This document shows positions 12,876-16,644 of a DNA stretch of 64,000 bases, piece by piece. The position numbers and the translations under genes are program-made. The notes beneath the pieces are model-generated. The model did no database searches and was not told the DNA's origin. It saw only the letters and a program-made list of their open reading frames with translations. The stretch is taken from the NCBI GenBank assembly GCA_019677205.1, contig JAAMXY010000044.1, positions 1,413-65,412 of the forward strand. Direction: 5' to 3'. The DNA comes from Pinguiococcus pyrenoidosus (Eukaryota; Sar; Pinguiophyceae; Pinguiochrysidales; Pinguiochrysidaceae). How positions within the stretch are numbered: position 1 is the stretch's first letter; every line of letters begins with the position of its first letter.

Positions 12876-13117
12876 GACATTCCTACTCGATCTACGCCAT
12901 GCGTGAGTCCATTTCAAGCTGCTCGGTGAGCAGCTTGAAATTCCGAGTGAGGAGCATACTCATTCCCAGGGCTCCAAGTGGCAGCAGGTGGCAGAGCCTC
13001 GCGGAAGCGTATTAACCTTGATCCCTTGTAGAAAGGATAGAGACTGCCGAGCCGGTGTTTCTTCTTTCTTGGAAAGGAATTTCGTTTTGCGCCACCTGCT
13101 CTGTTTCCGTTTTGATT

Positions 13118-13213
13118 TTTTCCCACGTTCCCATGTTTCCATTTTTTCCCATTTTCCCATGCTCCCATGTTCCCATGTTCCCATGTGCCCATGTTCCCAT
13201 GTTCCCATTTTCC
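13118..13213 (+). repeat. 8-bp tandem repeat (CCCATGTT-like)
   Basis: Degenerate tandem array of an 8-bp unit, mostly TCCCATGT with variants such as TCCCATTT and GCCCATGT. About ten copies lie in the convergent spacer downstream of ZNG1. It is not in a gene. Confidence 0.8.
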
Positions 13214-13535
13214 CTGCTCGCTTCATCACCCCATTCTCCTTTCTTTGCCATCCCTTTGATTGATATCGTCGGCATACCATCGGGGAAGACGCAGCTTCCA
13301 CTGCCGCCACGTTGCAGCAGTTCAGCGATATCGCAACGTAGAGGGATACAGAGGAAGAGAGGCATCGGGAGAACATGCAGGGGCGAGGATGGGAGCTGGA
13401 CCTACGAAAAGCAAAAGGAGGCTCTTTCATTCCCCGACTGTCTCATCCTTCAGCTCTGGACTTCTTGTGGGAACGGCACAGTACCAGGCAAAGACTGCAC
13501 CAAGTTGAGCTCGGGAGGAAGGGATCCTTTCCGCT

Positions 13536-13606
13536 CGCTCTTCACTTCCGGCAGGCTTGCCGTAGCTGCTAACAGCAGTTGCGACACCCGCCATCATTCG
13601 AGAACG
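13536..13606 (-). promoter_or_regulatory. SECIS element, type II (selenocysteine insertion)
   Basis: Read on the minus strand, 160 nt after the stop at 13766. Helix I is CGTTCT pairing with AGAGCG, then an internal loop (CGA/TGA). The quartet is ATGA on the 5' side and GAAG on the 3' side, giving the tandem G.A/A.G pairs. Helix II is TGGCGGG with CCTGCCG (7 pairs), a 2-nt AG bulge, then TGTCG with CGGCA (5 pairs). The apical internal loop has the conserved AA (C-AA / CTA), and above it a mini-stem CTGCT/AGCAG closes a GTT triloop. The ATGA-to-AA distance is 13 nt, within the eukaryotic SECIS range. All elements are visible directly; recruitment of SBP2 and eEFSec is known for such elements. 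Confidence 0.88.
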
Positions 13607-13765: not shown

Positions 13766-14881
13766 CTAGGCCGCGTCCACGGGGATGCTCTTCTCATAGA
13801 GCGCGTCGTACTTGGTCGCATGCGTGTGCAAGGCGCTGGCGACCGCATTGATCACGGCCGCGGGCACCTTCTCCGAACAGTCCAGCGAGGCCAGTGCGTC
13901 GCGAGCAAGTCGCAGGATGCGCGCGTGGTCCTCCGCGTGCGTCGCGGCGGCGGAGAAGCGGTCGTCCGTCCCCGCGCCGCGGCCAAAGCCATGCGCCGCC
14001 AGGAGCTCCTCCTCATGCGAGAAGTGCGACGCGAAGACGTTGATCACCTGCTCCAGGTCGGCCGCGCGCTGCGACGCAGCCAGAGCTTCCAGCGCCTGCG
14101 TGCACTCCGCATGCTCCTCGTCCATGGACGTCACGCCCACCGACGGCAGCGCCTGCACAGCCGCAGCCTCTTCGGCGCCACAGCCCTCGGCCGCACCGAC
14201 CACTTCGCATGCGTCGCTGGCCGCGATCGCGGCCAGCAGATCCCGCTTCTCCAAGCAGCCCGACGCGTCGATGCCCAGCTGGCGCATCACGTCCTTCAGC
14301 TGCCGCACCGAGGCCGTGGCCAACTTGGCGCCGCTGAGCCTCGGCACCTGCGGCGCTTCCGCTCGCGCCGCCGTCGCCACCGCCTCCTGCCTCTCGTCCA
14401 GCTCGTCGTCGTCCAGGTCCAGGATGTGCGCGAGCGTGACCTCGAGGTCTCGAAAGGCCGCCTCGCCGGCCTCCAAGAACGCGCGCGTCGCGCCGGACAC
14501 CACGCGCGCCTCACTGTCCAACACCACGAAGCCGCTGCAGCCCAGCTGGCCGAAGCGCGGCATGTGCTCCTTGTCCTTGATGTACGCGTTCGTGACCGCG
14601 TCTAAACCGAACGAACGCTCGAACATGAGAGCGGTGGGCCGGCCCACAACGCTGATGCACAGGAAGACGATGCTCGGCCACACATTCGAGCTCGCCCACT
14701 TCTCCATCTGCATCGCGCAAGGCCGGCATCCGCCTCAGCCGTCGTTGTAGAAGTGCACCACGGTGGCGTCTGCGCCGCTGCGCGCGCGCACGAACTCCAC
14801 CAGAGACGTCTGCGGCTCTTCACCGCCCGGCGCGCGCACGTGGAACCGGAAGTCCGGCGGCACCTTGCCGAACATCGCCAT
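13766..14881 (-). CDS. selenoprotein: thioredoxin-fold domain (U-x-x-C) fused to hemerythrin domain
   Basis: Single exon of 371 residues if TGA at 14735-14737 is read as selenocysteine 49. The N-terminal domain runs VVHFYNDG-U-GGC-RPC, a redox U49-x-x-C52 motif after a beta strand. It continues through WPSIVFLCISVVG to GCSGFVVLD near residue 110, as in AhpC/thioredoxin-like folds. A linker with a helical LKDVMRQLGIDASGCLEKRDLL segment follows. The C-terminal domain is a hemerythrin with ligands H257, H286, E290, H315, H319, H354 and D359; spacings 29, 4, 25, 4, 35 and 5 match the family apart from two longer loops. No GT donor lies near the TGA, the frame stays open on both sides, and a SECIS lies in the 3' UTR. 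It may sense or detoxify O2, NO or peroxide. Confidence 0.85.
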
Positions 14882-15124: not shown

Positions 15125-16644
15125 ATGGAGCCGGTCGCGCTAGACACTGGCGATGCGGCGGCGGACGAACTGGCGGCTTTGGCGTCGAAACTGCCGCGGA
15201 GTGACTTGAAAACGGCCGCAGCAGCGCTGTCGGCATTCAACTCGGAGAACGAAGGTTTGCGCGCGCGCCTTTTCCTTTCGTTGGGGTTGTCTTTCTTCTT
15301 CCCACCTTTCGACTGCGCCAGACGCCTCAGCGACGGAACTAACCTAACCCAAACCCAAACCCAAACCCAAACCCAAACCCAAAAGATGAAGTGGACTTCT
15401 TGAGTCGCGCAGGCGCGACGCTCGCGGGCAAGGAAAGCCTCGTTGCGGAGCTTTTGTCGCTCTGCGCGCGTCTGCTGTCGTCGACGCCGGATTTTGTCGC
15501 GCAGCCAGTGGAGGCGCTGGCGTGTGCGCAGACGCTGCTGTGCATGCGCCTCATGCTGAGGCAGCGCAAGGGTGTGGAGCGCTTGCGCGACGATGCGGCG
15601 GTGGCGCTGTACTTGAAAGCGCTGGAGGTCCCGAGCGCCGCCAGCGACCCGGAGCGGGATGTGGCCGATCGCGGATTGAACTGCCTTGCGGTGGCGCTGA
15701 CCAGAGACGAGCAGAAGATCCGATGGTTTTGCGCGGAGAAGAGCGGCGTTCAGATGCTGCTGCGCGTGTTGAGAAGCTCCCGAGCGACAACGACGCTTTT
15801 CAACGCCGCGCGATTGCTGTACTACATCGCTGGAACCACTCCCAGCGCTCTTCAGGAGCTGGTGTCCTCGAGACCACAAGATGACTTCATCGTTCTGGCG
15901 GCGTTTCTTGTTCGAAGCCAGCACCCCCCGTTTCCCAAAGGCGCCGAGCGCGTGAGACTGGTGGCCGAGATGCTGAAGCTGCTTTTCCTGCTGCAGAACT
16001 TTGCCGTCTCGAGCGGAGCCATTGGGTCGCTCCTGGAGGAGGACAGTCCGATGATGACCGAGCTGGGCATCTTGACGTGCGAGATCATGGCGCTGCCCAA
16101 CTCCTTCATGGAAGTCGTGGACCTGAAGATGCACCTGGTGCATCTGCTGCTGTTCATGCCGGACAGCTTCGTGGCCTTCCTGGCGCTGCAGGAGACCTCG
16201 ATGGACTTGCTGGCGCTGCTGGAAGTGCAGATCACGAGGCGCCTGACCGACGAAGACATCGACGAGCGGGCCATGGGGCCCCTTCTGCAGGTTCTCCAGA
16301 AGCTGGCGCACCAAGACCAGGCATGCCGCGAGCAGATGGCGGCAGCCTTGTTCCCCAATCCGGCACCAGACCGGGGCCCGCTCCCGGTGGGCGCCCTGAC
16401 GCCCGAGGCGCGCCAGAAGTTCATGGAGGATAGGATGCATCCAGTGGACGTGCCGGAGGGGACCTTCCGCGCGCGCTTCATCCGCCTGTGCTGCAGCTTG
16501 GACATGAACGTGAAGAGCACGGCCGTCGAGATCCTCTACGAAATCTGCAATAGAGATGAGAACGTCCTCGTCGATCGAATAGGCTTCGGAAACGCAGTCG
16601 CTTTCCTCCGGATGAAGGGCCTGGTAAACGTGGCTGGCTTGTGA
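15125..16644 (+). CDS. RIC8: RIC-8 / synembryn family G-alpha chaperone and exchange factor
   Basis: Two exons, 15125-15254 and 15386-16644, phase 1, give 462 residues. The protein is built of armadillo-like helical repeats, e.g. FNAARLLYYIAGTTPSALQ and LVAEMLKLLFLLQNF. The C-terminal segment FRARFIRLCCSLDMNVKSTA followed by EILYEICNRDENVLVDRIGFGNA and FLRMKGLV is the family hallmark. Ric-8 folds and activates heterotrimeric G-alpha subunits in animals, fungi and slime moulds, so its presence implies G-protein signalling in this organism. It shares a 243-bp divergent upstream region with the selenoprotein gene. The intron ends in a telomere-like repeat. Confidence 0.85.
15341..15385 (+). repeat. 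(CCCAAA)n telomere-like repeat at intron 3' end
   Basis: AACCTAACCC followed by about six copies of AAACCC (TTTGGG on the other strand), running directly into the AAAAG acceptor of the RIC8 intron at 15385. It replaces the usual pyrimidine tract. The unit differs from plant-type TTTAGGG by one base deletion, and the first copies (CTAACC, CTAACCC) resemble TTAGGG-type repeats. Confidence 0.85.

Follow-up and report, generated by a model that had tools for sequence, protein, structure and literature searches.

The window analysed here, a stretch of 64,000 nucleotides from the genome of the alga Pinguiococcus pyrenoidosus, carries on its minus strand a coding sequence of 371 residues (positions 13,766..14,881) that ends in a TAG stop and runs in one frame, unbroken except for a TGA at codon 49 (14,735..14,737). 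We take this TGA as selenocysteine (Sec, U49), a reading to which a SECIS-like stem beyond the gene, codon use and the starts of homologous proteins all point. The predicted product consists of an N-terminal thioredoxin-fold domain, a helical linker and a C-terminal hemerythrin domain; all features of the gene discussed below lie on the same strand. An earlier note on this DNA had described the 372-codon frame, the TGA that interrupts it and the motif FYNDG-U-GGC-RPC around the TGA, and all of these are present as it gave them. The genome search recovered a single copy of the gene.

The TGA at codon 49 sits inside one continuous coding frame. Position-specific GC content is 0.71/0.46/0.92 over codons 1–48 and 0.70/0.48/0.89 over codons 50–371, and the in-frame codons ahead of the ATG differ, at 0.68/0.56/0.58. 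A coding score trained on codons 50–371 and applied to codons 1–48 was matched by none of 2,000 base shuffles. The similar codon-position GC on both sides of the TGA, taken together with the shuffles, therefore indicates that the region before the TGA is coding and that the ATG at 14,881 is a sensible start.

Three protein searches returned 39 proteins (P0002–P0040), among which P0002 is the window's own, leaving 38 homologues; the two larger searches scored 7,998 candidates sharing most words, so that distant or Cys-containing forms may be missed. Two members are named to species, P0014 from the diatom Nitzschia inconspicua and P0033 from the dinoflagellate Prorocentrum cordatum. Alignment A2 holds 36 proteins and P0001, 37 rows in total. 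A common start is evident from these rows: 31 of the 36 aligned homologues open with M-x-x-W at precisely residue 59, which lies ten residues past the Sec site, and three of the 31 (P0027, P0036 and P0037) derive from MMETSP transcripts. The exceptions are P0007, P0038 and P0039, which begin at a later Met, P0033, which is labelled partial, and P0005, which reads A-F-F-E-G-G-C-R-P-C and crosses the site with no stop and with a gap in place of residue 49. No homologue has Cys at that position, but P0005 alone extends upstream that far. The recurrent starts just past the Sec site suggest a conserved stop codon there, the conservation of the TGA across species being read from the protein starts. 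A scan for DNA of relatives with the family alignment gave 14 pattern matches in viral contigs and 43 in genome contigs, but no stretch among them codes for a relative. When the first 160 residues, with Cys written for Sec, were used as a query for Cys forms or stand-alone domains, three of 58 candidates proved to be matches, all with the GQLGCSGF motif of the family.

The same starts lend themselves to another interpretation, in which the TGA is a true stop and the product, beginning at or near Met59, is the plain hemerythrin-like protein of the protein database. The database entry for this gene (P0002) begins at the next Met-like position, MEKWASS, and shares this start with the 31 homologues. 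Against a true stop, codons 1–48 carry the coding signature of the remainder, and a Met59 start would drop strand 39–45 and the first half of helix 52–65 from the predicted thioredoxin fold. The TGA moreover occupies the redox position and is followed downstream by the SECIS-like stem, and P0005 has GGCRPCAMQ upstream of the Met. We regard termination at this codon as improbable. A sequencing error or a pseudogene is more improbable still: only one copy of the gene was recovered, but the homologue starts recur at one place (31 of 36), the remaining frame is open and codon use is intact.

Removal of the TGA by an intron, which would leave a mature protein lacking Sec, has similarly little to recommend it. 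There are 104 frame-keeping GT..AG pairs of 30–400 nt, and the absence of residues at the Sec place in P0005 is compatible with such splicing. The earlier statement that no GT donor lies close enough is wrong as worded: 11 GT dinucleotides occur within 144 nt upstream of the TGA, the closest at a distance of about 20 nt. None of the 11, however, fits GTRRG, an intron would cut into the active-site motif or delete it entirely, and the three homologues derived from MMETSP transcripts likewise start just past the site. We put the chance of splicing at this site very low and continue with U49 as a translated residue.

The sequence around the TGA reads V-V-H-F-Y-N-D-G-U-G-G-C-R-P-C, with the putative active site U49-G-G-C52-R-P-C55 at 14,717..14,737. 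With Cys written in place of Sec in the phmmer query, UGGC aligns with the CGHC of PDIA4 and the CGAC of a trypanosomal QSOX, both weak matches (E 0.19 and 0.33). The Sec would accordingly lie where a thioredoxin-type CxxC sits, the location that the earlier note had proposed. Two further cysteines had escaped that note. C55 extends the motif to U-x-x-C-x-x-C, and C115 (codon at 14,537..14,539), located in a G-Q-L-G-C-x-G-F motif, is invariant in all 37 rows of the alignment. The latter motif occupies the place where thioredoxin folds, we presume, usually carry the cis-Pro loop.

Residues 2–157 (14,411..14,878) form a ResA/TlpA-like thioredoxin-fold domain in the predicted structure. The model has a mean pLDDT of 86.4 and a pTM of 0.58, so that it does not fix how the domains are arranged with respect to each other. 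The U-x-x-C motif is predicted at the start of helix 1, with U49-G-G-C52 leading into helix 52–65. No cis-Pro precedes the core strand—the sequence L113-G-C115-S-G-F118 has no proline, the place being assigned from model strand 119–122. Because this residue is absent, the domain is called only TlpA/ResA-like.

Structural comparison of the model likewise indicates a ResA/TlpA-type thioredoxin fold, with peroxiredoxin and deiodinase folds tied in Z: the iodothyronine deiodinases 9h48 and 4tr3 score 12.8 and 12.6 and several thiol peroxidases 12.4–12.6, level with the DsbE-like match. On the predicted structure, the fold alone does not discriminate between the three groups. Deiodinases resemble the present protein in bearing Sec, but U-x-x-C followed by a further Cys is not a deiodinase active site, nor that of a typical peroxiredoxin. 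Compared with thiol-disulfide oxidoreductases of the ResA/TlpA/DsbE type, the present protein has Sec in place of the first Cys and an additional C55, reads G-C-S-G-F, with no proline, where a cis-Pro is usual, has no long hydrophobic stretch at its N-terminus as judged by eye, and carries an added C-terminal hemerythrin domain.

The two domains are joined by a predicted helical, SAP/ARMET_C-like linker (residues 184–221, 14,219..14,332), assigned from the structural model and a weak match to ARMET_C (E 0.0046) that falls below the cut-off; ARMET_C is matched in 3 of 37 family members. Several members differ in this region: P0007, P0019, P0024–P0027, P0029, P0030 and P0033, the last being the P. 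cordatum protein, show by eye an SH3/KOW-like insert and Cys-rich stretches between the domains, replacing the SAP-like segment.

A candidate SECIS element follows the gene in its putative 3' untranslated region. This type II SECIS-like stem (13,536..13,606), which does not figure in the earlier note, was located by a pattern scan and folded with RNAfold. Its AUGA core starts 169 nt beyond the TAG stop, and helix II comprises 11–12 pairs with a 2-nt bulge. The apex contains a CAA bulge and a CUGCU-GUU-AGCAG mini-stem, with GGAA on the 3' side opposite the AUGA. The strict scan pattern required the AUGA core, AA in the apical region, a 3' GA and helix II. In the 890-nt intergenic 3' region it matched once, at −20.9 kcal/mol, whereas 150 dinucleotide shuffles of that region gave a mean of 0.027 strict matches; one shuffle had a match at −18 or below and none at −22 or below. 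Over both strands of the whole window the pattern matched twice, the other match lying at −12.3. The stem is both the minimum-energy and the centroid structure in RNAfold, with a modest energy z of about −2, 5 of 200 shuffles folding equally well or better. Rfam models, run with the gathering cut-off and with relaxed ones, returned no SECIS match and left the stem unscored. The strict scan also gave no match in the 1.3-kb 3' flanks of two Sec-type glutathione peroxidase-like (GPX) genes of the same genome (L007 and L009), and for this reason it stands without a positive control. A relaxed candidate in the L007 flank was rejected, as it folds no better than shuffles (z 0.73).

The assembly (23.7 Mb in 768 contigs) encodes several components of the Sec machinery: a tRNA-Sec (72.3 bits, anticodon tca), SepSecS (400.6 bits) and SelD, which scores 256.8 bits across two adjacent matches within a frame of 875 residues. 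This SelD frame (L013 and L014; G000:C403:30829-31824) exceeds SelD alone and may be fused to another domain. No eEFSec was identified among the best three of 23 selB-model matches, which by eye are an EF-Tu on a plastid-like contig, an EF-1alpha and an IF-2. The plastid-type EF-Tu fits an algal origin of the genome. Two of three GPX-like genes, L007 and L009, have TGA at the expected Sec site, in the contexts V-A-S-Y-U and V-A-S-F-U, a position which we take to be the known Sec site of this family; L009 has a second TGA in an apparent intron. The third gene, L008, has Cys at the Sec place and no TGA. Matches to the Rdx family, L011 with an internal TGA and a TAG and L012 with no stops, did not resolve into a clear selenoprotein.

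Open TGA codons in the present gene and in two GPX genes would also be expected if TGA had been reassigned to an amino acid throughout the genome. An EF-1alpha-like gene of the genome terminates in TGA, however, and TGA is thus also an ordinary stop. No stop interrupts the matched parts of SepSecS and SelD or those of the top three selB-model matches, and the TGA of the GPX genes falls at what is presumably a known Sec site. Genome-wide reassignment consequently has a negligible probability. We consider it very likely that the TGA at codon 49 is read as Sec. The SECIS-like stem, the Sec machinery, codon use, homologue starts and the fold together lend good support to the reading proposed earlier, of a selenoprotein that joins a U-x-x-C thioredoxin-like domain and a hemerythrin.

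The C-terminal hemerythrin domain (residues 247–364, 13,790..14,143), identified by alignment and predicted structure, is modelled as a four-helix bundle. All seven iron ligands named in the earlier note—H257, H286, E290, H315, H319, H354 and D359—are found at the given positions. The family profile matches myohemerythrin with an E of 4e-7. The single protein scores below the curated Pfam and NCBIfam hemerythrin cut-offs, although in the genome search the hemerythrin domain taken by itself clears the Pfam one, at 26.2 bits for a threshold of 25.3. That a diiron centre is bound here is likely. Known hemerythrins, bacteriohemerythrins and myohemerythrins differ from it in that here the domain is fused behind a selenoprotein thioredoxin domain. 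Across the family the ligand set HHEHHHD is complete in 18 of 37 rows, this protein included; 14 rows have only the first five ligands, and five are fragments or diverged. The rows lacking H354 and D359 (P0005, P0008, P0010–P0018, P0020, P0021 and P0023) stop short of the last helix, in most cases a few residues past a conserved Cys. Loss of the last helix in these N. inconspicua-like members could be a real truncation, or a last exon missed or an intron read through by gene callers. The genome encodes a second hemerythrin-domain protein, L018 (G000:C125:7211-7567), in a frame of 650 residues that continues into zinc-finger-like Cys clusters and a RING; by eye it presumably resembles the BRUTUS-type iron-sensing E3 ligases.

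A protein of this kind is already in print. Jiang et al. (2020, BMC Genomics 21:699, PMC7539508) reported a hemerythrin domain in an algal TlpA selenoprotein, and the earlier note's claim that no described protein has this architecture does not hold. In the main text of that paper 'Hemerythrin' appears once, in a single sentence, and we noticed there neither an experiment on it nor the SAP-like linker; 80% of the TlpA family members are given as Sec-containing. Among open-licence papers with hemerythrin and selenoprotein or selenocysteine, this is the only one that appears to concern such a protein. The algal TlpA selenoprotein shares with the present gene the Sec-containing TlpA-like domain and the hemerythrin, the two being matched by description and fold, not by sequence, and the present gene is by description a further member. 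Beyond that description, the present analysis supplies a complete gene together with its SECIS-like element, a third Cys in the active site, the linker and the way in which iron ligands are lost across the family. Because 31 of 36 database entries begin after the Sec site, the redox half is lost from them; reading the TGA as Sec restores that half.

Judging from motif and predicted fold, on which both the redox and the diiron halves rest, the product is most likely a soluble Sec-dependent thiol oxidoreductase. Stated more loosely, with the inferred details left flexible, the overall reading as a Sec-dependent oxidoreductase tied to a diiron domain has a somewhat better than even chance of being correct. 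Coupling between the two halves, the substrate and the cell location are inferences. In a coupled mechanism, the U49 selenolate would attack a peroxide, disulfide or nitrosothiol substrate, and C52 (possibly C55 or C115) would resolve the resulting selenylsulfide. A thioredoxin- or glutathione-type system might then recycle the Sec centre, while the diiron hemerythrin would bind O2, peroxide or NO and either gate the redox domain or supply the oxidant. We put forward this coupling of the U49 centre to the diiron hemerythrin tentatively, at rather less than an even chance.

About as likely is a real selenoprotein in which the hemerythrin is a regulatory or structural module, serving iron sensing, metal storage or partner binding, and not a gas-binding centre coupled to Sec. 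In 14 of the 37 rows the ligand set is without its final two members, while C115 is kept in every row, a pattern that such a module would accommodate. L018, a hemerythrin-like protein with Cys clusters in the same genome, offers a parallel through its presumed likeness to iron-sensing E3 ligases. A dinoflagellate hemerythrin-like protein described in PMC8070245 as a RACK1 partner in yeast two-hybrid points the same way; it may or may not belong to the present family. Against such a module, the full set of seven ligands is kept here and in 17 further rows.

Returning to the coupled mechanism, no full-length Cys form occurs among the 38 homologues, almost all of which stop short of the Sec position, and the chemistry may therefore require selenium. 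It is a doubtful but conceivable extension that this family of eukaryotic plankton combines both centres in one device, in which O2, peroxide or NO would be captured at the diiron site, and the Sec centre would either reduce it or pass the signal on to partner thiols. Should such coupling exist, it would connect selenium and iron with the handling of oxygen or NO in algae, in a way open to experiment.

Three repeat features were noticed by eye in the sequence flanking the gene. A perfect hairpin, ATTTCAAGCTGCTC-acc-GAGCAGCTTGAAAT, lies at window positions 12,911–12,941 between two convergent genes. Beyond the SECIS-like stem, positions 13,115–13,215 hold a minisatellite-like run of GGGAACAT-type units. 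On the other side of the gene, TTTGGG units form a run on the minus strand at 15,335–15,385 and resemble degenerate telomere repeats.
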